A DNA stretch of 39,442 bases from Oscillospiraceae bacterium (lineage in GTDB: Bacteria; Bacillota; Clostridia; Oscillospirales; CAG-272): the NCBI GenBank assembly GCA_015064085.1, contig SVSX01000014.1, positions 1 to 39,442 on the forward strand. The letters are read 5' to 3'. Position numbers and translations under genes: made by a program. Below, piece by piece: positions 5,424 to 32,547 of this stretch (position 1 is the first letter of the stretch; each line of letters opens with the position of its first letter). The notes below the pieces were generated by a model. It saw only the letters and a list, made by a program, of their open reading frames with translations, made no database searches and was not told the DNA's origin.

Positions 5424-5571
5424 CCTCGGTATTTTATCTAAAAGGAGAATATATCTATCTCAAGGAGGAGAGCGCTACGTTGGAATTCATTGAGGAAAAG
5501 CTGCATTATTAATAATGGAAAAGCTTTGATACCCTTTCTTAACACCGTCGGGAGATTTGCCCGACGGTGTT
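5424..5571 (+). terminator. Region ending in a strong terminator after the PQ-loop gene
   Basis: AACACCGTCGGG (5541-5552) and CCCGACGGTGTT (5560-5571) form a 12-bp stem followed by TTTCTC. Between the gene and the stem are two Shine-Dalgarno-like sequences (AAAGGAGA near 5440 and AAGGAGG near 5463) and a ten-codon TTG frame at 5480-5512 of doubtful meaning. Confidence 0.75.
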
Positions 5572-5610
5572 TTTCTCTGCTAAGTTTTTTCGGAAAATAC
5601 TGCCCTATTG

Positions 5611-5639
5611 TTGATTTTTCACCGCCGATATGCTATAAT
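5611..5639 (+). promoter_or_regulatory. Promoter of the GH78-like gene
   Basis: TTGATT (5611-5616), 17 bp, TATAAT (5634-5639) with a TGC extension. Confidence 0.8.
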
Positions 5640-5669
5640 CCAATTAACGTATCTACAAGGAGGTGCTTT

Positions 5670-6824
5670 ATGTTAAACGAAAAAGCGAAATGGATATGGA
5701 TCTCTCCCACCTTCTCGCAAAACGAATACGTTGCCTTTGAGGGGAGCTACGAATATTCCCGAGGCAAGGCTATCCTCCGTATTGCCGCCGAGACCGACTA
5801 TATCCTCTATGTAAATCACCGCCTCGTCTCCTTCGGACAGTTTGCGGGTTATCCCTTTGAGAAATATTATGACGAGATCGACCTCTCGGAATTCTCAAGA
5901 GAAGGAAGCAACACCCTCACCGTCACCGTACGCTACGAGGGAGTGAACTCCGCCACCCATATAGACGACGGCGGCGGACTTATCTTTTCCCTTGAGATCG
6001 ACGGCGAGCTTGCCCTTGTGAGCGACGAAAATATACTTTGCGGCTATGACGGTCGCTATATCGCTGGTCAGACCCGACTTATCACCCCTCAGCTGGGGCT
6101 CACCTCGGGTATGAAAAGCGGTACTTACAAGGCAGACCGACAGTCGGTCGAGGTGAAAAAGACCAGAAATATAAAGAAACGCCCCGTAAAAAAGACAGTC
6201 CTCGGCGACTTTATCGAGGCACAGCCTATCTCCGAGGGAAGCCGCATATACGACCTCGGGCGCGAGGAGGCGGGATATCTCAAAATAAAGCTGAGATCCC
6301 CATCCCAGGCATCGGTGAAGGTGGTCTACGGTGAGCACCTTGCCGACAAAGAGGTGAGATATCTTATAGGAAAACGGGATTTTTCGGTGGACATCGAGGC
6401 AGACAGCGGCGAGGAGGAATTTATTCTGCTCTTCCTCAGAATTGCCGCAAGGTATCTTCAGGTCTATGCTCCCGATAAGACCGAGATACTCTCAATAGGT
6501 CTCCTTCCCTCGCGCTACCCACTCACCGAAAAGCCCTTTGCGCTCACGGGGCTTGACAAGGAAATCTATGACACCTCCATCAGGACTCTGCGTCTCTGTA
6601 TGAACACTCATTACGAGGACTGCCCCTGGCGTGAGCAGGCGCTCTACGTTCTCGACTCGAGAAACCAGATGCTCTGTGGCTATTACGCCTTCGAGGAGAC
6701 CGAATTTCAGCGTGAAAACCTGAAATTCATCGCGAAAGGAACACGTGAGGACGGCTTTCTCGAGCTTACCTACCCCGCGGTAAACACCCCCGCGATACCC
6801 TTGACGTCATTCTCGGCTTTATGA
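5670..6824 (+). CDS. GH78-like (alpha-L-rhamnosidase-type) glycosidase, N-terminal part of a frameshifted gene
   Basis: This 384-residue fragment begins at ATG 5670 after AAGGAGGTG. It has an N-terminal beta-sandwich (KWIWISPTFSQNEYVAFEGSYEY), a second beta-domain with GQTRLITPQ and YDLGREEAGYLKIKL, and the start of an (alpha/alpha)6 barrel marked by HYEDCPWREQALYVLDSRNQM (near 310), the GH78-like active-site region. It ends at an out-of-frame TGA after LTYPAVNTPAIP. The rest of the barrel follows at 6821 in another frame. The family releases terminal rhamnose or related sugars from plant glycans. There is no signal peptide, so it should act inside the cell on imported oligosaccharides. Confidence 0.85.
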   Translation: MLNEKAKWIWISPTFSQNEYVAFEGSYEYSRGKAILRIAAETDYILYVNHRLVSFGQFAGYPFEKYYDEIDLSEFSREGSNTLTVTVRYEGVNSATHIDDGGGLIFSLEIDGELALVSDENILCGYDGRYIAGQTRLITPQLGLTSGMKSGTYKADRQSVEVKKTRNIKKRPVKKTVLGDFIEAQPISEGSRIYDLGREEAGYLKIKLRSPSQASVKVVYGEHLADKEVRYLIGKRDFSVDIEADSGEEEFILLFLRIAARYLQVYAPDKTEILSIGLLPSRYPLTEKPFALTGLDKEIYDTSIRTLRLCMNTHYEDCPWREQALYVLDSRNQMLCGYYAFEETEFQRENLKFIAKGTREDGFLELTYPAVNTPAIPLTSFSAL

Positions 6825-7438
6825 ACAAGCTTTACAGCCGAATAGACGAAAACGGTCTTATCCCCGAGCTCGAGCCCCCCTTCTGGAATTTTTACGAGTG
6901 GACCGAGGGCAGCTCGGGAAAGTCAAGCTCTCCCTATCACCTTATCCTCAACGCCGCCTTTGTCTATTCCTGCGAGAGGCTCTCGGAGCTTTGCAGACTC
7001 GCAAACAGAAGCTTCGGACTTGACACAGCGCCGATCAAAAAGGCTATTAAAAAAGAATTTTTCAACCCCGAAAGGGGAATATTCACCCTTTCTCCGAACG
7101 GTAAGACAGCTTCTCAGCTTGGAAACGCCTTCGCGCTTCTGATCGGTCTTGGCGACGAGAGAACAAAGGAGGCGCTCAAATGCTCGGCGGAGCTGATCCC
7201 CGCCACCCTTTCTATGCTGCCCTTCATCTACGACGCCCTTCTTCTTTGCGACTGCTCCGCAAAGGATTTTATCCTTAGGGATATCCGCGAGAAATACGGC
7301 TATATGCTCCGCGAGGGCGCGACCACCTTCTGGGAGACCATCGAGGGCGAGTCTGCCTTCAGCCGCGCGGGAAGCCTCTGCCACGGTTGGAGCGCTATTC
7401 CGATCTATTACTATAATATTTTTCGGAACGGAAAATAA
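6821..7438 (+). CDS. GH78-like glycosidase, C-terminal part of the frameshifted gene
   Basis: These 205 residues complete the catalytic barrel of the preceding fragment. They include ENGLIPELEPPFWNFYEWTEG and the late motif GATTFWETIEGESAFSRAGSLCHGWSAIP, typical of GH78-like enzymes. The ATG at 6821 overlaps the upstream stop as ATGA but has no ribosome site before it. The frame is open upstream (LDVILGF precedes the Met), so this is more likely one gene broken by a single-base change near 6797-6801 than two coupled genes. Restored, the protein would be about 590 residues. Confidence 0.8.
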   Translation: MNKLYSRIDENGLIPELEPPFWNFYEWTEGSSGKSSSPYHLILNAAFVYSCERLSELCRLANRSFGLDTAPIKKAIKKEFFNPERGIFTLSPNGKTASQLGNAFALLIGLGDERTKEALKCSAELIPATLSMLPFIYDALLLCDCSAKDFILRDIREKYGYMLREGATTFWETIEGESAFSRAGSLCHGWSAIPIYYYNIFRNGK

Positions 7439-8174: not shown

Positions 8175-9164
8175 TTACATATCTCCGCCGAGAGGGATAT
8201 TCAGATATTCTTCCGCGGTCTCTCCCGAGGAGCTGAGCAGCCAGAGCTTCATATACGCCGCAACGGGTGAGATATTGTATATCGGCGTTATTCCAAGCTC
8301 GTCGTAAAGCGTTGAGCTCTCATACTCAGGACCTTTTGCCACACCCGTGGCAAAAACACGGACTCCCTTCGCTCTCATCTTCTCATAAAAGCTTACGGCG
8401 GCGGGAGATTTCGTGTCAAGCGTACCCGAGTGATAGGTGTTCAGAAGCAGATATCTCACTCCCTCTCCCACCTCGGGATATACTATTCCGGGGTAAGGGG
8501 TCAGCATAAGGATACCCGCGCTCTCGGCGGTGAGTCCCGAGACTTCTATCGGCGCTCTTCCGTCCTTTTTCTCGGAAAATTCGGGATTCTTCACAAACTC
8601 AAAATCACCGTTGTATCTTCCGTACTCCCTATTCTTGACGCTCGACACCTGATCCGAGAAGGATCTTCCGCCGACAAGACGGGTCGCGCGGTGTATCTTC
8701 ACCACCGAGGAGCGGTCGTCCATATACGGCACGAATGCCCCCCTGCCCTCTCGGTCCTCAATAAAGCGGACAGCGGCGTGGAGATTTTCAAGGGCGTTGC
8801 TCTTCTCGTTTTCTATAGGTCTGTTTGCCGACACGAGGCAGACGGGCGGCGTGTCGTTGCCTATGGCGTATCCAAGGGCGGCGGCGCTGTACTGCAGGGT
8901 GTCCGTTCCGTGGGTGACCACGATACCGTCGTAGCCAGAGGTGATATTTGCCTTCACCGCCTCGAGAAGCATTCTTATCTGCTCTCCCGTATTATTCTCG
9001 CTGAGCTCGGTATAGGGCTCGGAAACGTCGTAGTCAAAATCGATTCCGTATTTTTTCGAATACGCCTCAAGTATCTTATATGCCTTTCCCTTGTCGGCTG
9101 AAATGACTCCTCCCTCAAGGGTGCTTCCGATCGTTCCGCCCGTAAATATAAAAAGTATCTTCAT
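8175..9164 (-). CDS. L-asparaginase (type I-like)
   Basis: This 329-residue cytoplasmic enzyme hydrolyses asparagine to aspartate and ammonia. The two threonine motifs are present: TGGTIGS (nucleophile Thr11) and THGTDTLQY (Thr87/Asp88), with VKIHRATRL further on, as in the family. The C-terminal domain (RYLLLNTYHSGTLDTKSPAAVSF) is also typical. There is no signal peptide. It follows the small cysteine-rich ORF (stop at 9182) on the same strand and probably shares its promoter at 9438-9466. Glutaminase side activity cannot be judged from sequence. Confidence 0.92.
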   Translation of the reverse strand: MKILFIFTGGTIGSTLEGGVISADKGKAYKILEAYSKKYGIDFDYDVSEPYTELSENNTGEQIRMLLEAVKANITSGYDGIVVTHGTDTLQYSAAALGYAIGNDTPPVCLVSANRPIENEKSNALENLHAAVRFIEDREGRGAFVPYMDDRSSVVKIHRATRLVGGRSFSDQVSSVKNREYGRYNGDFEFVKNPEFSEKKDGRAPIEVSGLTAESAGILMLTPYPGIVYPEVGEGVRYLLLNTYHSGTLDTKSPAAVSFYEKMRAKGVRVFATGVAKGPEYESSTLYDELGITPIYNISPVAAYMKLWLLSSSGETAEEYLNIPLGGDM

Positions 9165-13547: not shown

Positions 13548-13806
13548 GATTTAGTATGAATAATATTTAGGCGTTGATGAAGAGAGTATCGCAAATCATC
13601 TGCTCAAAGAGAGCCGCGGACGGTGGGAGCGCGGCAACAGGTCTTGTGAGAAAAACACTTCGTAGCCTGCGGAAGAAAGCCTTTTTCGGTGATTAGAACC
13701 GCACGTTCATCTCGTAAAGATGTTTGAGAGGATCGCCTTGGCGGTCAATTTGGGTGGTATCGCGGAAGTTTACCTTTCGTCCCATTTGGGGACGAAAGGT
13801 TTTTTT
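13548..13806 (+). promoter_or_regulatory. T-box leader, probable Asn (AAC) specifier
   Basis: This tRNA-sensing leader precedes aspS. The T-box GGGTGGTATCGCGG (13752-13765), which pairs with an uncharged tRNA acceptor end, is followed by a terminator (ACCTTTCGTCCC 13772-13783, GGGACGAAAGGT 13789-13800, then T7). Stem I shows AGAGAGTA at its base, AAAGAGAGCC and GGTGGGAG further up. The basal helix ATGAAG (near 13576) pairs with CTTCGT (13658-13663). The triplet just before it, followed by a purine, is AAC (13654-13656), an Asn codon. Low tRNA(Asn) charging should therefore switch the operon on. The specifier is assigned by hand folding. Confidence 0.9.
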
Positions 13807-13878: not shown

Positions 13879-15654
13879 ATGTTGAGAACACATAATTGTA
13901 ATGAGCTTAGCATCGATCATATCGGTCAGAAGGTTACTCTGACAGGTTGGATCGAAACCGTCCGCGACCACGGCGGCGTCCTTTTCGTTGACCTTCGCGA
14001 CCACTACGGCGTGACGCAGATCGTTTTTTCCGATGACTCTATGATCGCGGGTATGTCCAAGGAGACGGTCGTTCTGGTTGAGGGCAACGTAACAAAAAGA
14101 GCGGAGGAGACGGTAAACCCCAAGATCGCTACGGGTCTTATCGAGGTCCGCGCCGAGAAGATCGAGGTGCTCGGTCCTTGTCAGCTGGCTCTTCCCTTTG
14201 AGATCGACGCTTCTACCCTTACCCGTGAGGAGGTGCGCCTGAAATATCGCTACCTCGACCTCAGAAACCGCAAGATACACAACAATATCGTGCTCCGCTC
14301 GAAGATACTCAGCTACCTTCGCCGTCAGATGGAGGATCTGGGCTTCCTTGAGATCCAGACACCTATACTCACAGCTTCCTCTCCCGAGGGCGCTCGTGAC
14401 TACCTCGTTCCCAGCCGTAAGCACAAGGGCAAGTTCTATGCTCTTCCCCAAGCGCCTCAGCAGTTCAAGCAGCTTCTTATGGCGTCGGGCTTCGACCGCT
14501 ATTTCCAGATAGCTCCCTGCTTCCGTGACGAGGATGCCCGTCAGGACCGCTCACCGGGTGAATTCTATCAGCTCGACTTTGAGATGTCCTTCGCTACTCA
14601 GGAGGACGTGTTCGCTGTGGCTGAGACAGTCGTTTACAACACCTTCAAGGAGTTCTCGGACAAGGAGGTCTCGAAGCCTCCCTTCCGCCGTATCACCTTC
14701 GCCGACGCGATGCTCAAATACGGCTCGGATAAGCCCGACCTCAGAAATCCCCTTGAGATCAAGGATCTGACCGACTTCTTCGCAAAGCACGAATTCCTCA
14801 ATATCAACGGCAGAACAGTTCCCTTCAAGAACAAGCTCGTCCGCGGTATCGTCGCTAACTACCTCGTCAAGAAGGACGGAGAGGGCGACGGCAAGAAGGC
14901 GTTCGAAAAGGCTATCGACGTATATTCCAGAAGCATCGGAATGAAGTTCGGATGCGGATATATCACCCTTGAGGACGGAGAGTTCAAGGGCCCCATCGCC
15001 AAGTTCCTCACCGAGGAGCAGAAGGCTGAGCTCTGTGAGCTTTGCGGCATCAAGAACGGCGACTCCCTCTTCTTCATAAGCGACAGCGCATCTGTCATCA
15101 ACAAGCTCGCGGGCGAGATGAGGACCTGGATCGGCAACGAGCTCGGTCTTATCAGAAAGGATTCCTTCGAATTCTGCTTCATCGTCGACTTCCCCATGTA
15201 CGAGCTCAATCCCGAAACAAACAAGATCGACTTTACTCACAACCCCTTCTCTATGCCTCAGGGCGGTATGGACGCGCTTCTCAACAAAGATCCCCTTGAG
15301 ATCTTCGCTTATCAGTACGATATCGTCTGCAACGGCGTAGAGCTTTCCTCGGGAGCTGTCAGAAACCACAACCCCGAGATAATGAGAAAGGCGTTCGAGA
15401 TCGCGGGCTACGGTGAGGAGGATCTTAAGGCTAAGTTCGGCGCTCTTTACACCGCCTTCGCTTACGGCGCGCCGCCTCACGCAGGTATGGCTCCCGGTGT
15501 TGACAGAATGATAATGCTCATCGCCGAGGAGGAGACTATCCGCGACGTTATCGCATTCCCGCTCAACGGAAACGCGCAGGATCTTATGATGGGAGCACCC
15601 GGTGAGGTCACCGAGCAGCAGCTCCGCGAGGTCCATATCAAGGTTAGAGACTGA
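13879..15654 (+). CDS. aspS: Aspartyl-tRNA synthetase, probably non-discriminating
   Basis: This 591-residue bacterial-type AspRS has an OB-fold anticodon-binding domain (about 1-110), then the class II catalytic core with APQQFKQLLMASGFDRYFQIAPCFRDEDARQDRSPGEFYQLDFEM. The GAD insertion follows, and then motif 3 near 537-552 (GAPPHAGMAPGVDRMIML). Residue 31 is His in RDHGGVLF. Discriminating enzymes such as E. coli's have Leu there, and His is a known mark of enzymes that also charge tRNA(Asn) with Asp. With the Asn T-box and gatCAB behind it, this supports indirect Asn-tRNA synthesis. Ribosome site GGAGGA precedes the ATG. Confidence 0.95.
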   Translation: MLRTHNCNELSIDHIGQKVTLTGWIETVRDHGGVLFVDLRDHYGVTQIVFSDDSMIAGMSKETVVLVEGNVTKRAEETVNPKIATGLIEVRAEKIEVLGPCQLALPFEIDASTLTREEVRLKYRYLDLRNRKIHNNIVLRSKILSYLRRQMEDLGFLEIQTPILTASSPEGARDYLVPSRKHKGKFYALPQAPQQFKQLLMASGFDRYFQIAPCFRDEDARQDRSPGEFYQLDFEMSFATQEDVFAVAETVVYNTFKEFSDKEVSKPPFRRITFADAMLKYGSDKPDLRNPLEIKDLTDFFAKHEFLNINGRTVPFKNKLVRGIVANYLVKKDGEGDGKKAFEKAIDVYSRSIGMKFGCGYITLEDGEFKGPIAKFLTEEQKAELCELCGIKNGDSLFFISDSASVINKLAGEMRTWIGNELGLIRKDSFEFCFIVDFPMYELNPETNKIDFTHNPFSMPQGGMDALLNKDPLEIFAYQYDIVCNGVELSSGAVRNHNPEIMRKAFEIAGYGEEDLKAKFGALYTAFAYGAPPHAGMAPGVDRMIMLIAEEETIRDVIAFPLNGNAQDLMMGAPGEVTEQQLREVHIKVRD

Positions 15655-15698: not shown

Positions 15699-15980
15699 AT
15701 GGATAGAGATACACTTAGAAGGCTTGAGCTCTTAAACCAGCTCAGCCTTACAGAAGCGCAAAAGGAGGATGTATTCTCCTTCTTCGCAGATAGAGACGAG
15801 GATCTTAAAGCCCTTGAGGCGATAGACACCGAAAACACCGAGAGAATGGTTCACGTTATGCCCATTATGACGGTGGTCCGCGAGGACGTGGTGTCTCAGC
15901 CCTTCGCGCGTGAGGATCTTCAGCGCGGCGCGCCCGAGACCGACGAGGGTTATTGGTGCGTTCCCCGCGTGGTAGAATAA
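15699..15980 (+). CDS. gatC: GatCAB subunit C
   Basis: This 93-residue subunit ties GatA and GatB together in the amidotransferase. The N-terminal helical half (RLELLNQLSLTEAQKEDVFSFF) and the conserved C-terminal tail (EGYWCVPRVVE) are in place. The start follows AAAGGAG at a good distance. It lies 44 bp after aspS and 17 bp before gatA. Confidence 0.88.
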   Translation: MDRDTLRRLELLNQLSLTEAQKEDVFSFFADRDEDLKALEAIDTENTERMVHVMPIMTVVREDVVSQPFAREDLQRGAPETDEGYWCVPRVVE

Positions 15981-15997: not shown

Positions 15998-17194
15998 ATG
16001 ATGAAGGCTTACACATATAAAGCAGATACGGCGGCAGAAAAAAGAATAGTCGCCGACGATATGATCCTGACAAAAGATATACCCACCACCGCAGGCTCTA
16101 AAATGCTTGAAGGGTATGTCAGCCTTTTCGAGGCTGAGGCGCTCACACGCCTCAAAAACGCGGGCTATTCCCTTTCGGGAAAGGCAGACGTAGGCGAGTT
16201 CGCTATCGACCTTCTCGGCGAGACCTCTGTACGCGGAGCTCTCTCCGTTGACGGAAAAATACTGAACCCCGCGGCAGAGATAGTCAGCTCGGGCGAGGCT
16301 ATGGCAGCCCTCACACTCGACGTGAACGGCTCGGTTCGCCGCGCGGCGGCTCAGAGCGGTCTCATAAGCGTCAAGCCCACCTACGGCACTGTTTCAAGAT
16401 ACGGAACTATCCCCGCGGCGTGCTCGGGTGAAACGGTAAGCGTTATGGCAAAATGCCCCTCGGTATGCCGTGAGGTCCTCGGAGTGATCGCTGGTCACGA
16501 CGATAAGGACGGCACGAGCCTTCCCGAGGAAAAATGCGCTCTCGTGAGCGCAGCCGCTCCCATTCGCCGCGTGGCTATCCTCACCGATATGGCAGAGGGA
16601 GCTGACGGCAGCGTGACCGAGAGGATCGATGCCCTTTCAAGGGCGCTTGAGGCTTCGGGAGTTACAGTTGAGAAAATAAGCTCAACTCTCATTTCCTCGG
16701 CTCGCGCCGCTTGGAATATCCTTATGAGCGCCGAGCTCTGCAACAACGTTTCCCGTTACGACGGAGTCAAGTACGGCTACCGTTCCGATAACTTCTCGGG
16801 TCTTGACGAGCTCTACACCAACAGCCGCACAGAGGCGTTCGGCGAGCTCCTTAAGACGGCTATCCTCTTCGGCTCTGACACACTTTCAACGGAAAATTAT
16901 ATGAAGGTCTACGACAAGTCGCTTCGCGTCCGCAGACTCATTTCGGAGGAGTTCACAAGAATGTTCGAGAGCTTCGACGCGGTGATGATGCCCGCTTGCT
17001 CCTCTATGAGTTACACAGAGGAAGCGGTCAAAGCAGACAAATACCTCTGCTTCAAGGAGAATTTCTACACCGCTCCCGCAAGTATCACGGGACTTCCCGC
17101 TGTGGTTACGGGCGGAGTACAGCTTGTAGGCAGAGCCTTCTCCGAGGCGGCGCTCCTCGACCTCGCTGAGCTTTCCGCAAAGGAGGGTAAATAA
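15998..17194 (+). CDS. gatA: GatA-like amidase subunit, short and apparently lacking the glutaminase site
   Basis: This 398-residue protein occupies the gatA position (usual length about 485). It aligns with GatA from KDIPTTAGSKMLEGYV to the end, including KPTYGTVSRYGTIP, IAGHDDKDGTS, SRYDGVKYGYRS and SLRVRRLI. The ~60-residue N-terminal region is missing. The catalytic Lys of IKDN is Asp20 (IVADDM), GGSSGGSAAAV is reduced to EIVSSGEAMAA with about ten residues deleted, and DTGGSIRQPA is DVNGSVRRAA with Ser112 kept. The Arg and Asp that hold glutamine appear as Thr287 and Asn355. Start 15998 follows GGGAGGA. It may be a structural subunit; a second true GatA could exist elsewhere. Confidence 0.85.
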   Translation: MMKAYTYKADTAAEKRIVADDMILTKDIPTTAGSKMLEGYVSLFEAEALTRLKNAGYSLSGKADVGEFAIDLLGETSVRGALSVDGKILNPAAEIVSSGEAMAALTLDVNGSVRRAAAQSGLISVKPTYGTVSRYGTIPAACSGETVSVMAKCPSVCREVLGVIAGHDDKDGTSLPEEKCALVSAAAPIRRVAILTDMAEGADGSVTERIDALSRALEASGVTVEKISSTLISSARAAWNILMSAELCNNVSRYDGVKYGYRSDNFSGLDELYTNSRTEAFGELLKTAILFGSDTLSTENYMKVYDKSLRVRRLISEEFTRMFESFDAVMMPACSSMSYTEEAVKADKYLCFKENFYTAPASITGLPAVVTGGVQLVGRAFSEAALLDLAELSAKEGK

Positions 17195-17196
17195 TT

Positions 17197-18639
17197 ATGA
17201 AATACGAAACAGTCATCGGTCTTGAGGTCCACGTTGAGCTCGCTACCGATTCAAAGATCTTCTGCTCCTGCTCGGCTCATTCCTACGGAGCAGACCCCAA
17301 CTCTCACGTTTGTCCCGCCTGCTGCGGTATGCCGGGTATGCTCCCCGTTGTAAACAAGAGAGTAGTCGATTTCGGTATGAAGGCAGGTCTTATGCTTGAC
17401 TGTCATATCAACCGCACCACCACCTTCGACAAGAAGAGCTATTACTATCCCGACCTTCCCGCGGCTTATCAGACTACTCAGTGGTTTGCGCCCGTGGCTG
17501 TGAACGGTCTTGTTGAGATAACCACCTCAAAGGGCAAGAAGAACGTCCGTATCAAGCAGATCCATATGGAGGAGGATGCGGGAAAGCTTGTCCACGATAT
17601 AAGAGAGGACACCACACACGTTGACTTCAACAGAACCAGCGTTCCGCTGATCGAGATAGTCAGCCAGCCCGACCTTTCGAGCGCCGAGGAGGTAGAGGCT
17701 TACCTTGAGCGCCTTAAGACACTTCTCCGCTACGCGAGAGTCGCCGAGTGCGAGATGGCGCACGGAACTATGCGCTGTGACGTAAACCTTTCGGTTCGCC
17801 CCGAGGGCAGCGACAAGCTCGGCGTGAGAACCGAAATGAAGAATATGAACTCGGTAGAGGCTATCAAGCGCGCTATCGAATATGAGACCGCGAGACATAT
17901 CGACGCTCTCGAGAACGGCACAGAGGAGCTCCGTCAGGAGACACGCCGTTGGGACGACATCAAGGGAAAGAGCTACGCTATGAGATCCAAGGAGACCGCG
18001 GGTGATTACCGCTATTTCCCCGATCCCAACGTAATGCCCGTGGTTATCGACGATACTTGGTTTGAGAGCATCAAGTCATCACTTCCCGAATTCCCCGAGG
18101 TCAAGCGCGCGCGCTATGCCGAGGAGTACGGTCTTTCCGAATACGACGCCGAGCAGCTCACAAAGAGCATTGCCCTCTGCGAGTGCTTTGAGGACGCCTT
18201 CTCTGTCTGCAAGAGCGCTAAGGACGCGGCTAACTGGATGATCTCCGAGGTGATGAGCATACTCAATGCCCGTCAGATGACCTACGATATGCTGAAGCTC
18301 AACGGAAAGGCTCTCGGAGAGCTGATCCTGCTTGTATCAGAGGGCAAGGTCGGACGCGCGAACGGAAAGAAGATACTCGGCGCGATGTTTGACGATCCCA
18401 CCATCGCCCCTGCCGCTTACGCGGAGGAGAACGGTCTTATCGTTTCAAACGACACGGGACTTATCGAAAAGGTAGTTGCCGAGGTAGTCGCATCCGATCC
18501 CAAGGCTGTTGCCGACTACAAGGGCGGCAAGGAAAAGGCGCTTATGTCTCTCTTCGGAAGATGTATGAAGCAGCTCAAGGGCAACTGCGATCCTCAGATG
18601 CTGAGAACTATTCTCATAGATATTGTAAATAAGCAGTGA
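17197..18639 (+). CDS. gatB: GatCAB subunit B (kinase/transamidase)
   Basis: This 480-residue, full-length subunit activates Asp or Glu on misacylated tRNA with ATP and amidates it with ammonia. The N-terminal IGLEVHVEL, HMEEDAGK (about 126-133) and DYRYFPDP motifs of the catalytic cradle are intact. A cysteine set CSC...CPACC (about 28-49) fits the zinc-bearing GatB type. The C-terminal YqeY-like tRNA-binding tail is present. In contrast to its GatA partner nothing looks degenerate. AGGAGGG (17181-17187) overlaps the end of gatA. Confidence 0.95.
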   Translation: MKYETVIGLEVHVELATDSKIFCSCSAHSYGADPNSHVCPACCGMPGMLPVVNKRVVDFGMKAGLMLDCHINRTTTFDKKSYYYPDLPAAYQTTQWFAPVAVNGLVEITTSKGKKNVRIKQIHMEEDAGKLVHDIREDTTHVDFNRTSVPLIEIVSQPDLSSAEEVEAYLERLKTLLRYARVAECEMAHGTMRCDVNLSVRPEGSDKLGVRTEMKNMNSVEAIKRAIEYETARHIDALENGTEELRQETRRWDDIKGKSYAMRSKETAGDYRYFPDPNVMPVVIDDTWFESIKSSLPEFPEVKRARYAEEYGLSEYDAEQLTKSIALCECFEDAFSVCKSAKDAANWMISEVMSILNARQMTYDMLKLNGKALGELILLVSEGKVGRANGKKILGAMFDDPTIAPAAYAEENGLIVSNDTGLIEKVVAEVVASDPKAVADYKGGKEKALMSLFGRCMKQLKGNCDPQMLRTILIDIVNKQ

Positions 18640-20391: not shown

Positions 20392-22410
20392 ATGATATAT
20401 ATTATTTTTTGTTTCGTAATTCCGATATTGTCCGATATTTTGGGTATTATTCTGAAAAGCTATTTAGCGGCTTCTCTTCCCCTTACAATATCGCTTCTCG
20501 TCCTTGCTCTGCTCCCGATACCGATCTTTGCGGCAAACATAATTGCCACATCGGTGTACACAAAACGGATTAAGGGTGAAAAGGTCGACAGCTTTCAAAG
20601 ATATCTACTCGAGCACCGAGAAAAAGCAAAGTCCGAGTCACACAAGGGACTCTCTCAGCTGAAAAGGATACGCTACCTCACAAACGCGTATTCTGTTTTG
20701 CTGGTTCTCTGCGCCATCTCCGCCGCTGTCCTTTCCTCGGCTTTTATCGGTGCTACAGAATGCTTCCCCCTTCTCATATATCCATTTTTGATAATGTACG
20801 CGGTACAACGCAGGATCAAAAAGAGAGAAAAAGAGGAGGATAATTCCGATAATTTCGCAAAGCCGGAGGATTATCCAAATCTCCACGCGCTGGCAAAGAG
20901 AGCGGCATCGGCTGTCGGATGCGAAACCAAGGAGATCAGAATATTCTTTACCTCCTCCTTTAACGTATCGATCTCAAAAAACAAGAGCTACTACATTCTC
21001 TTTTTAGGCGCTATGGTATTGGATAACCTTACCGAGGAGGAGCTCTACAACACGTTGCTCCACGAATTTTCTCACGTTTCGGATAAATATAAGAAGATCA
21101 ATAAGGAAAGAGATTATTACTGCTTCATCACCTCGATAGACGACATCCTCAACTTCGCATCAAAAATAGCCGCAAAGTTCTATCTCTTCAGTGACATCTT
21201 CCTTTTCATACGCTATACGGTATTCGATTACGCCACCACACTTATGATAGAAACAGACGCGGATGAGGCTATGGCAAAATACGGCGACCCGAAGATCGCC
21301 GCCTCAATGCTTATTAAGTTCAGCTATCATGACAGATTCCAATGGGAGGACGGCTCTTACGATTCAGAACCCTTATATGCCGACGAAGAGCCTCCCAAAA
21401 ACAGCGTACGCAACGAGTCGATGAAGCTGAAAAAAGCTATGGAGGAAAAGTCGGAGCTCTGGAACGACCTTGCTTCAAGGGAGATACTTGCCAACAACTC
21501 CACACACCCCACCGTAAAAATGAGAATTTCCGCCCTGGGCATCGAGGAGATAAAAACCGTTCATTCGAGCAGCTCCGAGGCGTATCTTGACGAAAAAGAA
21601 AAAGCCCTTGATATGATCGACTCGATCATATATGACAGAATAAGTAAAAATTATGAGGAGATACGTCGGGATAACTATATAGAGCCTCTTGAGAGGATCA
21701 CACAGTGGGAAGGCGAGGGCTCGCCCCTGCGTGGCGAAAGCTATGCCGATATAATAAGCGATCTCAGAGATCTCGGAAGATGCAAGGATGCTGAGGCGCT
21801 GTGCGACAGAGCAATAGCCGAGCTTCCCGCCGCCTCCGCTCACAGCGCGCACTTCTTCAAGGGCGCATTTCTCCTCCACAGGTACGACGCGAGCGGTATA
21901 GATCACGTCTATAAAGCCATTGAGGAGAATATGAACTACTGTGATGAAGGTCTTGATATGATCGGAAGCTTCTGCTGCATCACGGGAAGAGAAAAGGAGC
22001 TTGCCGAATACAGAGAAAAAGCGGTAGTCATCGCGCAGAAGAATTATGACGAGGACATCAACGCGAGTGAGCTTAACAAAAAGGACGACCTTCGCGGAGA
22101 GTCTCTTCCCGAGGGTATGCTCGAGGATATACTCGGTTATATAGCAACTATAGACGAGGGTATCATCGATAAAATATACCTTGTGAGAAAGACGATAAGC
22201 GAGAGCTTCTTCACCAGCGCCTTCGTTGTGGGATTTTCCTGCAAAGACGCCAAGAAGATACACAGCGTGATGCATAAGATCTTTCTTTACCTTGATGCTC
22301 ACCCCTCGGGTTGGCAATTTTCTCTCTTCGAGCTTTCCGAGCATAAGGACATAGATTTTGAAAAGATTGAGGGAAGCCTTGTTTACACGGCTGATAAAAA
22401 AGAAGATTGA
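20392..22410 (+). CDS. Membrane-bound M48-like zinc metallopeptidase with C-terminal helical repeats
   Basis: This 672-residue protein has two N-terminal hydrophobic pairs (about 1-55 and 97-137), then an M48-type domain with LLHEFSH (His224, Glu225, His228) and the glutamate ligand in IETDADEA (Glu287). The C-terminal half (about 440-660) is helical and TPR-like (LRDLGRCKDAEALCDRAIAEL, IDHVYKAIEENMNYC). The family cleaves membrane or surface proteins. The start follows TAGGAGGA, 11 bp after the transporter. The long C-terminal extension is much larger than in HtpX. The specific role is unknown. Confidence 0.85.
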   Translation: MIYIIFCFVIPILSDILGIILKSYLAASLPLTISLLVLALLPIPIFAANIIATSVYTKRIKGEKVDSFQRYLLEHREKAKSESHKGLSQLKRIRYLTNAYSVLLVLCAISAAVLSSAFIGATECFPLLIYPFLIMYAVQRRIKKREKEEDNSDNFAKPEDYPNLHALAKRAASAVGCETKEIRIFFTSSFNVSISKNKSYYILFLGAMVLDNLTEEELYNTLLHEFSHVSDKYKKINKERDYYCFITSIDDILNFASKIAAKFYLFSDIFLFIRYTVFDYATTLMIETDADEAMAKYGDPKIAASMLIKFSYHDRFQWEDGSYDSEPLYADEEPPKNSVRNESMKLKKAMEEKSELWNDLASREILANNSTHPTVKMRISALGIEEIKTVHSSSSEAYLDEKEKALDMIDSIIYDRISKNYEEIRRDNYIEPLERITQWEGEGSPLRGESYADIISDLRDLGRCKDAEALCDRAIAELPAASAHSAHFFKGAFLLHRYDASGIDHVYKAIEENMNYCDEGLDMIGSFCCITGREKELAEYREKAVVIAQKNYDEDINASELNKKDDLRGESLPEGMLEDILGYIATIDEGIIDKIYLVRKTISESFFTSAFVVGFSCKDAKKIHSVMHKIFLYLDAHPSGWQFSLFELSEHKDIDFEKIEGSLVYTADKKED

Positions 22411-28930: not shown

Positions 28931-30556
28931 ATGAAAGCATATATTTTTCAACCCCCGTATTCAAGAGATACCTCCCTTTCCGAGGAGTATTTTAACTATA
29001 AGCTCGACCTTCTCGACAAGTGCCGAGAGGACGCCGATATTATCGTTCTTCCAGAGTACAGCGACGTTCCCTGCGCTACCTCCACTCTCGAGGAAACACT
29101 TTATTATCACGATAAATATATAGATATCCTTCTCGAGCGTTGCTCAGAGACGGCAAAGCGCTGCTCGGCGATACTCTGCGTCAATGCCCTCAGCCTTGAG
29201 GAGAGCGGATACCGCAACACCACCTACATTTACGGAAGAGACGGCGCTCTGCTCGGAAAGTATTTCAAAAAGCATCTCCCTCCCCTGGAGCTGGAGACCC
29301 TCGCCCTTGACAGTGACTACACCTTCGAGCCCTCCTCTCCCTATATCCTCGAGATAGAGGGGCTCAGATACGCCTTTCTCACCTGCTATGACTTTTATTT
29401 CTACGAGGCATTCCCGAACATCGCGAAGCAGGACGTCGACATAATCGTCGGCTGCTCACTCCAGAGAAGCGACACCCACTCGGCTATAGAGATAATGTGC
29501 CGTTTTCTGGCTTATAACACCAACGCCTACGTGCTCCGCTCGTCGGTCAGCTTCGCTGAGGACTCGGAGATCTGCGGCGCGAGTATGGCGGTCGACCCCT
29601 TTGGAAACGTTCTTGAAAATATGAAGGGGCGGTTTGGTATGTTCTGCGTGGAATTCGACCCACGAAAAAAGCATCTCAAGCCCGCGGGCTTCGGAAATCC
29701 CGACGCTCCTCACCACAAGTATATAGAGTACGGAAGAAAGCCCTGGCAGTACCGCAACGGCGGTGCGTCGGTGGTCCGCTTTGATGAAAATATGCCCTAC
29801 CCACGTCTCTGCGCTCACAGGGGCTTTTCCACAGTCGCCCCCGAAAACACTCTGCCCGCCCTCGGCGCGGCAGTTGCGCTCGGAGCTGAGGAGATCGAGT
29901 TCGACGTCTGGTCGACCTCCGACAGAGTCCTTGTCTCCTGCCACGACAGCACCCTTGACAGAGTCTCAAACGGCACGGGAAAGATCTACGACCACACCTA
30001 CGAGGAGCTTCTCGCCCTTGATTTCGGCGCTAAGCACGACGAGCGCTTCGGCGGTCTTAAGATCACCACCTTCGAGGAGATCCTCCGCAAATTTTCGGGA
30101 AGAGTCATTATGAACATTCACGTAAAGATCTGGGACAGAAAAAAAGATGACCTTATGATCCCCGAGATCGTTTCCCTCGTTCGCAAATACGACGCCGAAA
30201 AGCACTGCTACTTTATGACCACAAACGATGAGGTCATACGCTATCTGAAGAGCTACGCTCCCGATATCCCCTGCTGTGTCGGCTGGGACGGAAATAAGGA
30301 CAAGATGTCTATGGTCGACCGCGCGGTGGCTCTCGGAGCTTACAAGATACAGCTCTTCAAGCCCTATTTCGACGAAAATACCGTGAAGGCTGCCCACGAG
30401 CACGGAATACTCTGCAACGTCTTCTGGGCGGACGACCCCGACGAGGCAAGAAAATATCTTGAAATGGGCATCGACACTATACTCACAAACGACTTTCTGG
30501 CGATAAAGAACGCCACCGAAAATACAATCAAAAAGATCAAGGAGAAAAGAAAATGA
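28931..30556 (+). CDS. Fusion of a nitrilase-superfamily amidohydrolase and a glycerophosphodiester phosphodiesterase
   Basis: This 541-residue protein has two enzymatic domains. Residues 1-270 are a carbon-nitrogen hydrolase with the Glu-Lys-Cys triad visible: VLPEYSD (Glu42), GKYFKKHL (Lys113) and FLTCYDFYFYEAF (Cys152). Residues 290-530 are a GDPD TIM barrel with LCAHRGFSTVAPENTLPA (His296, Arg297, Glu305), EEIEFDVW (Glu323, Asp325), VSCHDSTLDRVSNGTG (His338) and a LTNDF end motif. One chain could thus cut an amide or nitrile bond and a phosphodiester bond, perhaps of one glycerophospho-amide substrate. It overlaps the next gene as ATGA. Confidence 0.88.
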   Translation: MKAYIFQPPYSRDTSLSEEYFNYKLDLLDKCREDADIIVLPEYSDVPCATSTLEETLYYHDKYIDILLERCSETAKRCSAILCVNALSLEESGYRNTTYIYGRDGALLGKYFKKHLPPLELETLALDSDYTFEPSSPYILEIEGLRYAFLTCYDFYFYEAFPNIAKQDVDIIVGCSLQRSDTHSAIEIMCRFLAYNTNAYVLRSSVSFAEDSEICGASMAVDPFGNVLENMKGRFGMFCVEFDPRKKHLKPAGFGNPDAPHHKYIEYGRKPWQYRNGGASVVRFDENMPYPRLCAHRGFSTVAPENTLPALGAAVALGAEEIEFDVWSTSDRVLVSCHDSTLDRVSNGTGKIYDHTYEELLALDFGAKHDERFGGLKITTFEEILRKFSGRVIMNIHVKIWDRKKDDLMIPEIVSLVRKYDAEKHCYFMTTNDEVIRYLKSYAPDIPCCVGWDGNKDKMSMVDRAVALGAYKIQLFKPYFDENTVKAAHEHGILCNVFWADDPDEARKYLEMGIDTILTNDFLAIKNATENTIKKIKEKRK

Positions 30557-32547
30557 AAGACGTTAAAAAGCTTGACATTGTCGTTCCCGCCGAGCTTGAC
30601 TGGGACTGGCACACACCCGACGAGATAGTCGCCGAGCTTACCGAGCAGCACGAAAACTACGGCATTGATCGGTTCATCCTCTATTTCCCTTCAAAGGGGT
30701 TTGAATGTTCCGCACCGCCGACTCCCGAATACGTAGAGTATTACGCCAAAAATTTCAACGAGGTCAAGAGAAGAGTTGAGCCCCTCGGCATAGACCTTGG
30801 CTGGTGGTTCTGTCTCTCGGTTGGAATAGGTCACAGCGACAGCTTCACGGGACTGACCTCCTCGGACGGAAGAGTATCCTATCAGAACAATTGCCCCCTT
30901 GATCCCGCCTTTGAGGAATATATCTATGACTTCACGGAAAGATTCACGAGAATCGCAAGACCCTCCTTCATATTTATGGAGGACGATATGACGATATACC
31001 GCCATACGAGAGACGACGGCTGCTTCTGTAAATTCCATCTCGAGGAATTTGCGAAACGTATGGGAAGATATTATACCCCCGAGGAGCTTGTTTCAACCTT
31101 CGCGACACGTACTCCCGAGGCACTGGCGCTCCAGAGAGAATGGCGTAAGCTTTCGGAATACGCCCTCGTGGTCTTGTCAGAAAACATAAGACGCGCAGTG
31201 GATTCTGTAGATCCCGATATTCCGATAGGCTCAATGCAACAGGGCTGCTGTCATGAGGACGGAGACTGCACCTATGCTGTAGCAAAGGCACTTGCGGGAG
31301 ACAGACACAGACCCTTCTCGAGACTTTTCGGCGCGATCTATGAAGGCGTTCCCGCGGAAAAGATACCGAGAGCCCTCTTCCACCCCATATATTCGAGACA
31401 GCACATCACCGAGGATTTTGAGTATTTCTTCGAAACGGACAGCTTCCCCCACACTCGGTTCTTTACCTCGGGTAAGGAAATGCAGGCAATGCTGTCGGGT
31501 GTATATTCCGCAGGCTATGACGGCTCTACCCTTCAAACTCAGCAGTGCCTTGACTACGCTAACGAGGACACCACCTACGGATACTCCTTCGCAAAGGAGC
31601 GACCCCGTCACGAGGCTATCCACAAGATCGCGAAGCGGTGTGAGCTTAAGGGCGTTGAGATAACCTTCGATCCCTTCTATAACACGGTTGAATTGCACAA
31701 CAAGCACCCGTTTTGGACTCAGTCGGTAAGCTTTTTCGGCATTCCCTTCACCACTCTTGAGTCAAGCGTCGCCTTCTGGGACTACCGCCCCGCCAAGTAC
31801 TATCCTCACGACCAGGTAATGAAATACCTCTCAAAGACTCTCTTCCTTGACAGCGAAGCGGCTAAGGCGCTTTGTGAACGCGGTTACGGTAAATACCTCG
31901 GCGCAGAGATCGGCGAATGTCTTCTGAACGGACCTGAGACCCGCGATATCTGCGCAAGAGAAATAATCTGCGATGGCTTCGCTCCCGACAGCAAGGGCAG
32001 AAATATGGCGATGCCCTATCTCGCCTTTATAGGTCCGAGCAAGCCCTTTGCGGTGATACCTACCGACGAAAAAACAGAGATTATGACCGAATATTATAAC
32101 TTCAAGCGCGAATTCACCGCCAACGCTATGACACGCTTCAAAAATGAGCTCGGAGGCACAATAGTTATAATGGGTATGACCATTGAGAAAAACTACTCTC
32201 AGTCTCTGCTCAACTACAGACGCCAGAAGCTCTTCCACCAGATCATTACCGAGGCTTGCGACGAATTCGTTCTCGTAAAGGACCAGCCCCGTATCTTCAC
32301 CTTTATGAACGAACCGAGAGAGGCAACCGACGACTTCATAGGTGCGCTGACCTTGCTTAACCTCAGCAGTGACAACTGCGAGTCTCTCACCCTCCGCCTA
32401 CCCGAAAAGTGGAAGGCTTACAAGGAGATTCTTTCGATGGATGATGACGGCAATTGGACTCCCGCATCCTTCGAGGTTACCGAGGACGGCATTAAGTTAA
32501 ACGAGACAGCCGAATTTATGAGAGCGACATATCTCCTCTTCAAGTAA
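30553..32547 (+). CDS. Uncharacterised TIM-barrel (clan GH-A-like) glycosidase-type protein
   Basis: This 664-residue protein resembles the GH42/GH-A type: an N-terminal barrel (TPDEIVAELTEQHENYGIDRFILYFP, LGWWFCLSVGIGH, FIFMEDDMTIYRH near 140-150, IPIGSMQQGC, SGVYSAGYDGST), a middle flavodoxin-like segment (KAFVVIPTDE region near 490) and a small C-terminal beta-domain (EFMRATYLLFK). I can propose Glu in FMEDD as one catalytic acid but cannot name the second. Its ATG overlaps the upstream stop (ATGA) with AAGGAGAAAAG before it, so it is translated together with the nitrilase-GDPD protein. Confidence 0.7.
   Translation: MKDVKKLDIVVPAELDWDWHTPDEIVAELTEQHENYGIDRFILYFPSKGFECSAPPTPEYVEYYAKNFNEVKRRVEPLGIDLGWWFCLSVGIGHSDSFTGLTSSDGRVSYQNNCPLDPAFEEYIYDFTERFTRIARPSFIFMEDDMTIYRHTRDDGCFCKFHLEEFAKRMGRYYTPEELVSTFATRTPEALALQREWRKLSEYALVVLSENIRRAVDSVDPDIPIGSMQQGCCHEDGDCTYAVAKALAGDRHRPFSRLFGAIYEGVPAEKIPRALFHPIYSRQHITEDFEYFFETDSFPHTRFFTSGKEMQAMLSGVYSAGYDGSTLQTQQCLDYANEDTTYGYSFAKERPRHEAIHKIAKRCELKGVEITFDPFYNTVELHNKHPFWTQSVSFFGIPFTTLESSVAFWDYRPAKYYPHDQVMKYLSKTLFLDSEAAKALCERGYGKYLGAEIGECLLNGPETRDICAREIICDGFAPDSKGRNMAMPYLAFIGPSKPFAVIPTDEKTEIMTEYYNFKREFTANAMTRFKNELGGTIVIMGMTIEKNYSQSLLNYRRQKLFHQIITEACDEFVLVKDQPRIFTFMNEPREATDDFIGALTLLNLSSDNCESLTLRLPEKWKAYKEILSMDDDGNWTPASFEVTEDGIKLNETAEFMRATYLLFK

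Follow-up and report, generated by a model that had tools for sequence, protein, structure and literature searches.

Recurrent loss of glutaminase-site residues in the GatA subunit of a predicted asparagine-dedicated GatCAB module of uncultured Clostridia

The genomes of some uncultured Clostridia, several of which live in animal guts, suggest that the asparagine of their proteins is made with a GatCAB amidotransferase whose GatA subunit has lost its glutaminase site. The case analyzed here comes from a stretch of 39,442 nucleotides, hereafter the window, which is positions 1 to 39,442 of contig SVSX01000014.1 in the assembly GCA_015064085.1 of an Oscillospiraceae bacterium. The window contains a T-box leader with the specifier AAC (Asn) followed by genes for AspRS, GatC, a GatA that we call GatA*, and GatB (table 1). 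We read this set, with a probability of roughly 0.6, as a module dedicated to asparagine in which GatA* is dead as a glutaminase and amidation would proceed with ammonia that GatA does not supply. In what follows, G numbers denote genomes and L numbers denote loci.

Table 1. Elements of the predicted asparagine module and the asparaginase/GatD-like gene AslG in the window.
Feature	Position	Strand	Description
AslG, lower-scoring sub-group, candidate partner	8175..9164	-	PF00710, 102 bits; asnASE_I, 98.8 bits (cut-off 260.5)
T-box leader riboswitch	13565..13787	+	Rfam RF00230, 116.9 bits (gathering score 93); directly upstream of AspRS
AspRS, bacterial type, RDHGG	13879..15654	+	NCBIfam PRK00476, 768 bits
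GatC	15699..15980	+	TIGR00135, 57.6 bits (cut-off 47.1)
GatA*	15998..17194	+	predicted glutaminase-dead, N-truncated GatA scaffold
GatB (kinase/transamidase)	17197..18639	+	PRK05477, 592 bits (cut-off 338)

The genes for GatC, GatA* and GatB lie side by side, as in a GatCAB gene set, and gatB and gatC, described as intact in the initial annotation of this DNA, both score above their curated cut-offs. The reading frame of GatA* is kept, as that annotation also held, giving an unbroken translation of 398 aa from the ATG or 413 aa when counted from the first TTG after a stop. The Pfam Amidase model matches the protein with an e value of 2.5e-52 over profile positions 56–445, and because the match begins at position 56 we agree that about 60 N-terminal residues are missing. 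NCBIfam gatA is the top model but at 247 bits it lies well under the equivalog cut-off of 481 bits. By sequence, its nearest relatives of solved structure are the GatA chains from T. maritima, P. aeruginosa, S. aureus, and A. aeolicus, and a predicted model of the protein matches GatA chains end to end (VIA-align), showing the GatA fold to be kept.

To compare residues, 39 GatA* and 117 canonical GatA sequences were aligned together. In the window protein, Lys79 is replaced by Asp20, cis-Ser154 by Ile88, and Asp425 by Asn355, and Ser178 is kept as Ser112; the first and third of these assignments are those originally proposed. Arg358 corresponds to Ala288, which was placed by its 180-residue spacing from the nucleophile, the same spacing that the available text of PMC4027206 gives for S154 and R334 of yeast GatA. 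The residue named earlier for this position, Thr287, is one residue off and corresponds to the neighboring first Arg of KRR. The reported damage to the GGSSGGS loop stands as far as the loss of the cis-Ser is concerned; the deletion of about ten residues within the motif does not, since the alignment has a 7-residue gap directly before the motif, whose letters are substituted. Likewise, DVNGSVRR does replace DTGGSIRQ, to which it should be added that the nucleophile Ser112 itself lies in the replaced stretch and is retained. No catalytic triad was seen at another place in this protein, and in its genome, which is 82% complete, no Amidase-family gene other than GatA* was found and so no second full-length gatA.

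Elsewhere in the window, rhamnosidase-like domains extend over two overlapping frames (5490–6824 and 6821–7438) that match the early and late parts of one Pfam model, and a carbon-nitrogen hydrolase domain shares a single open reading frame, at 28931–30556, with a glycerophosphodiester phosphodiesterase domain, a pairing that is unusual to our knowledge. The frames at 20392–22410 (672 aa) and 30553–32547 (664 aa) have no Pfam match at 0.001.

GatA* is not confined to the window. It is carried by 10 of the 146 genomes of the window's family, by seven of the 30 genomes of its genus (57–100% identity; 19 more match at 31–36%, G186 matches in two pieces, and three have no match), and by 17 of 394 genomes in a sample of the order, where carriers score 356–692 bits, the next score is 281 bits, and eight families are represented. 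Combined over these samples, the carriers amount to 30 genomes of one order. Among the best 80 matches listed, at least nine named contigs from GTDB genomes also encode GatA*, five of them labeled as goat, roe deer or reindeer samples, and together with the 30 genomes they give the 39 distinct sequences of our set. This set includes an open 5' piece (L079) and a sequence without its first part (L200); the GatA*-like proteins of L064, L210, and L074 are kept outside it, and cut or two-piece matches (L030, L062, and L063) are uncounted.

The Lys-cisSer-Ser scissors and the Gln-binding Arg and Asp of GatCAB have been lost throughout this family. Among GatA* sequences having a letter at the respective alignment position, the Lys is found in 0/37 (Asp in 33, Glu in three, and Asn in one), the cis-Ser in 0/37, and the Gln-binding Arg and Asp in 0/38 each, and the nucleophile Ser persists in 13 of 39 (Ala in 16, Thr in nine, and Tyr in one), whereas each of the five residues is present in 117/117 canonical GatA. 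Members of the canonical set had to contain GGSSGG and to have a length of 440–620 aa, and its cis-Ser count is therefore biased; still, the eight GatA of canonical length that were excluded for having no GGSSGG all keep the Lys, both Ser, the Arg, and the Asp. Outside the main GatA* group, two further GatA-like proteins with ruined active sites adjoin AspRS and GatC, namely L210:4928-6067 (380 aa), in which the Lys has become Glu and the nucleophile Ile, and L064:1390-2490 (367 aa), which has lost the loop, has Lys for the nucleophile, and retains the catalytic Lys. The GatA* genome G087 also has a second, degenerate GatA (L074:1926-3305) with Gly for the Lys and a 23-residue loop loss, in which the Ser, Arg, and Asp are kept.

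Sequence evolution indicates that GatA* is maintained by purifying selection. Pairwise dN/dS, calculated from open frames and thus including a few codons upstream of the likely start, could be computed for 10 of 12 GatA* pairs and is 0.07–0.21, well below 1, and it is lower still for the partner GatB (0.02–0.10 in nine of 12 pairs). If GatA* were decaying and its operon dispensable, the single in-frame stops in the copies of L079 (near position 6772) and L200 (G292), which may be sequencing errors or real breaks, would be explained; however, 39 conserved members, the low dN/dS, and the failure to find another route to Asn-tRNA (see below) leave this explanation a negligible probability, and we reject it on conservation and dN/dS.

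In a tree made with a quick method, the 38 GatB encoded with GatA* form one clade among 102 canonical GatB, with an SH-aLRT support of 95, or of 100 when the related L210 is included, and this grouping is free of any information from GatA. Both groups share 58 positions that are at least 97% conserved in each, including Glu10, His12, and Glu125, which we take to be among the catalytic ones. A switch at position 79 separates them fully, from Arg in 102/102 canonical GatB to Lys in 38/38 GatA* partners, and F83Y, S94T, G148S, Q234H, and D278N are further switches paired with GatA*. Because members of the window's genus are mixed with other families inside the clade, the tree suggests that the operon has been transferred horizontally. 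The initial proposal of selection for a structural role over decay is supported by the recurrence of the losses in 39 proteins, their dN/dS, the GatB clade, and the AsnRS survey below.

The operon as a whole points to tRNA-Asn. The specifier of the window's T-box, read by eye from the alignment, is AAC, an Asn codon, as expected of an Asn T-box. T-boxes above the gathering score were found in 17 of the 25 GatA* loci scanned, all 17 with AAC by the same reading by eye, and were unseen in L065 (which has no upstream view), L068, L070, and L204–L208. The RDHGG stretch of AspRS has its His in 28/28 operon enzymes in which the stretch is present (27 from GatA* operons and that of L210), whereas Leu occupies this place in 10/10 separately encoded AspRS from relatives. 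We take His for Leu in the anticodon-binding domain to be a mark of a non-discriminating AspRS, following work on P. aeruginosa. Of the seven genomes of the genus that carry GatA*, five show a second AspRS, as do G177 and G178. The AAC T-box, the AspRS His, and the second AspRS together lead us to assign the module to the synthesis of Asn-tRNA(Asn). In one GatA* sub-clade (L068, L075–L078, L080–L083, L204, and L205), AspRS and GatC apparently form one fusion of about 700 aa, as judged from a profile match in L076 and L068 and, in the others, from the length of the open reading frame and the lack of a separate GatC; such a fusion is also seen in L004, a locus with canonical GatA.

We then asked what other sources of protein asparagine these genomes encode. 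AsnRS was not found in 17/17 GatA* genomes of the order sample, compared with its absence from 93 of the 377 others (Fisher 1.5e-10), nor in six of six further GatA* members of the genus, which makes 23/23 tested, the remaining seven of the 30 (G014, G062, G079, G087, G098, G108, and G141) having been left out of this test. AsnA was found in 0/30 GatA* genomes and in 17 of 22 other genomes, which were hand-picked for the AsnA and AsnB comparison, and a strong AsnB match is present in 14 of the 30 GatA* genomes and lacking in 16. The two main absences are not independent, because the loss of AsnA is expected to accompany that of AsnRS, according to the available part of PMC4206432. In the window's own genome (G000), GlnRS is present, and neither AsnRS nor an asparagine synthetase that could provide a bypass was found above the cut-offs; since this genome is 82% complete, its absences alone prove little. 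A firmer case is G013, 96% complete, in which neither AsnRS nor AsnA was found, nor a strong match to AsnB, and in which GatA* is the sole match to the gatA model. If its operon were dead, no known way of placing asparagine in proteins would be left to this organism. From these absences, the complex should be the sole route to Asn-tRNA in the GatA* genomes tested, and should work without a GatA glutaminase. In G177 (97% complete; L207), no GlnRS was found above the cut-off, and its GatCAB may serve tRNA-Gln too; in both G177 and G178 the GatA* profile finds one more match, which may be a canonical GatA.

Judged from sequence, it is thus very probable that the complex is functional and that GatA* is not its glutaminase. 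An objection to the latter part is that the lost catalytic residues would be compatible with a new site, for which Cys248 and Asn249 offer themselves as residues that are both new and kept: each replaces a Ser, the first in 38 of 39 GatA* and the second in 39/39. GatA* might accordingly have re-invented an active site, for example near Cys248, and hydrolyze Gln or another amide by new chemistry. We consider this very improbable, because neither Gln-binding residue is left, nor is the catalytic loop, because Cys142, which is likewise new in the window protein, occurs in only 25 of 39, and because most positions that are conserved in GatA* are conserved in canonical GatA as well.

With the glutaminase site lost and GatA* conserved, the nitrogen would probably come from ammonia or from an unrecognized partner. 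A candidate for such a partner is AslG, which in the window lies 4.7 kb from the AspRS gene on the opposite strand; it gives a name to the other glutaminase that the initial annotation offered as an alternative to free ammonia. Flanking genes could be counted in 35 of the 39 loci, the contigs of L040, L069, L197, and L209 being cut; of the 35, L065 offers nothing to read upstream, and for L066 and L082 one side is limited to about 1 kb. AslG is the immediate same-strand neighbor of the GatA* operon in 11 of these 35 loci, so that an asparaginase-family gene is encoded with the kinase subunit as in GatDE, and is one open reading frame off in a 12th (L073). It stands upstream in some loci and downstream, abutting GatB, in others, and in L201, L202, and L212 it comes after GatB, downstream of an Asn T-box. 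A universal neighbor it is not, as it is absent from the flanks of the nine named contigs in our set. Ten annotated neighbors at other loci, including an M20 peptidase, a GDSL lipase, NUDIX, and LarA, have no common theme.

The distribution of AslG across genomes was followed with a profile built from 12 operon-near copies, using a line of 160 bits that was chosen after the scores had been seen and lies just below the 162 bits of the window's copy. By this measure, AslG is present in 14 of the 17 order-sample genomes that have GatA* and in 10 of the 377 that do not, in 7/7 and 0/20, respectively, in the genus, and in 26 of all 30 GatA* genomes, or 14 of 18 when the 12 genomes that supplied the profile are set aside. 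In the order and genus searches, scores above 330 bits are reached in GatA* genomes only (17 of 30). The four GatA* genomes in which it is missing are G087, G177, G414, and G346, the last of which has a weak match only. The 10 non-GatA* carriers have the lower-scoring type, and nine of them also lack AsnRS, and thus the link between AslG and GatA* may partly run via the loss of AsnRS; among AsnRS-lacking genomes, AslG is still found in 14 of 17 with GatA* and nine of 93 without it (Fisher 2e-9).

The top PDB matches of AslG are an asparaginase and archaeal GatD (1zq1 and 2d6f). Of the GatD active site, made up of Thr, Thr-Asp, and Lys, AslG keeps the Thr and Asp and has lost the catalytic Lys (K254 in M. 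thermautotrophicus), which is Gln in 18/18 high-scoring AslG and Lys in 0/38 AslG rows, the window's copy too having no Lys there, compared with Lys in 5/5 ordinary asparaginases; AslG as an ordinary asparaginase is thus unsupported. A 314-bit AslG, likewise with Gln at the Lys site, occurs in G055, a genome with canonical GatA that lies outside the order and genus searches.

One reading of these data is that AslG has taken over the production of ammonia from GatA, hydrolyzing Gln or Asn and passing ammonia to GatB through or past the GatA* scaffold, which would make it a bacterial counterpart of GatD in GatD-GatE. The operon adjacency, including the copies behind an Asn T-box, the distribution across genomes, and the GatD matches speak for this, whereas the missing Lys, the post hoc line, the carriers without GatA*, G055 among them, and the GatA* genomes and named contigs without AslG speak against it, and we regard it as a tentative, rather doubtful alternative. 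On another, which we find slightly harder to credit, AslG would be a scavenging gene, linked to GatA* only indirectly and tolerated since translation in cells without AsnRS does not depend on free asparagine. The amidotransferase would then use free ammonia alone, an account that overlaps our preferred one. The lack of AsnRS in nine of the 10 other carriers fits this account, and both the excess of AslG that persists among AsnRS-lacking genomes and the operon adjacency count against it.

In the preferred reading of a dedicated asparagine module, uncharged tRNA-Asn would switch the operon on, and the operon AspRS would charge the tRNA to give Asp-tRNA(Asn). GatB would then phosphorylate Asp-tRNA(Asn) and amidate it with ammonia that does not derive from Gln hydrolysis in GatA, and GatA* would serve as a scaffold joining GatB, GatC, and perhaps the tRNA and an ammonia tunnel. 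The chemistry of GatB should permit the use of ammonia, because NH4Cl substitutes for glutamine in vitro in the related yeast GatFAB, as stated in the accessible text of PMC4027206. The direct donor would most likely be pool ammonia, with supply by AslG as second choice. Given a working complex with a non-glutaminase GatA*, we lean somewhat toward free ammonia as the main donor; under the same condition, nitrogen from AslG is possible with the odds against it. Against free ammonia stands the asparaginase-like gene beside or close to the operon, which points to a source of nitrogen dedicated to the complex more than to bulk ammonia.

In all described GatCAB known to us, GatB amidates with ammonia that GatA frees from Gln, the two reactions being coupled. 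In the literature searched, whose coverage leaves out most subscription journals, we found neither a glutaminase-less GatCAB from nature nor a conserved glutaminase-less GatA described. If our reading is true, this GatCAB, which is conserved and apparently essential yet has no glutaminase, would be the first case of natural uncoupling known to us. It would open questions about roles of GatA beyond the making of ammonia and about the swapping of amidotransferase subunits in evolution, and would lead one to ask whether some habitats permit ammonia-dependent formation of asparagine in proteins. In practical terms, a "gatA" annotation in these genomes is no proof of glutamine-dependent amidation.

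Compared with bacterial GatCAB of known structure, such as that of S. aureus (2df4) and the Asn-transamidosome of P. aeruginosa (4wj3), GatA* differs in being without the Lys, the cis-Ser, the Arg, the Asp, often the nucleophile, and about 60 N-terminal residues. We know of no dead GatA or asparaginase-like neighbor in the system of C. acetobutylicum. That system resembles the one described here in its T-box control, extra AspRS, and tRNA-dependent amidation by GatCAB, as far as the available part of PMC4206432 relates it (Saad et al. 2012). Ammonia-dependent carbamoyl-phosphate synthetase I is thought to derive from glutamine-dependent forms, according to the accessible portion of PMC6022934; this turn of a glutamine amidotransferase to ammonia is what our working model proposes for GatCAB, with the differences that the proteins are unrelated, that the glutaminase here is a separate subunit, and that the use of ammonia by GatCAB is deduced from genomes. 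In archaea, GatD is the asparaginase-family partner of a GatB-type kinase subunit, and a similar link, here by genome context, connects GatB with AslG; unlike in GatDE, GatC and a dead GatA persist and AslG lacks the equivalent of Lys254. It is possible, although we think it unlikely, that these uncultured Clostridia have convergently arrived at a tRNA-Asn-regulated hybrid of GatCAB and GatDE, in which a dead GatA scaffold is combined with a recruited protein of the asparaginase/GatD family whose remodeled site delivers or gates nitrogen.
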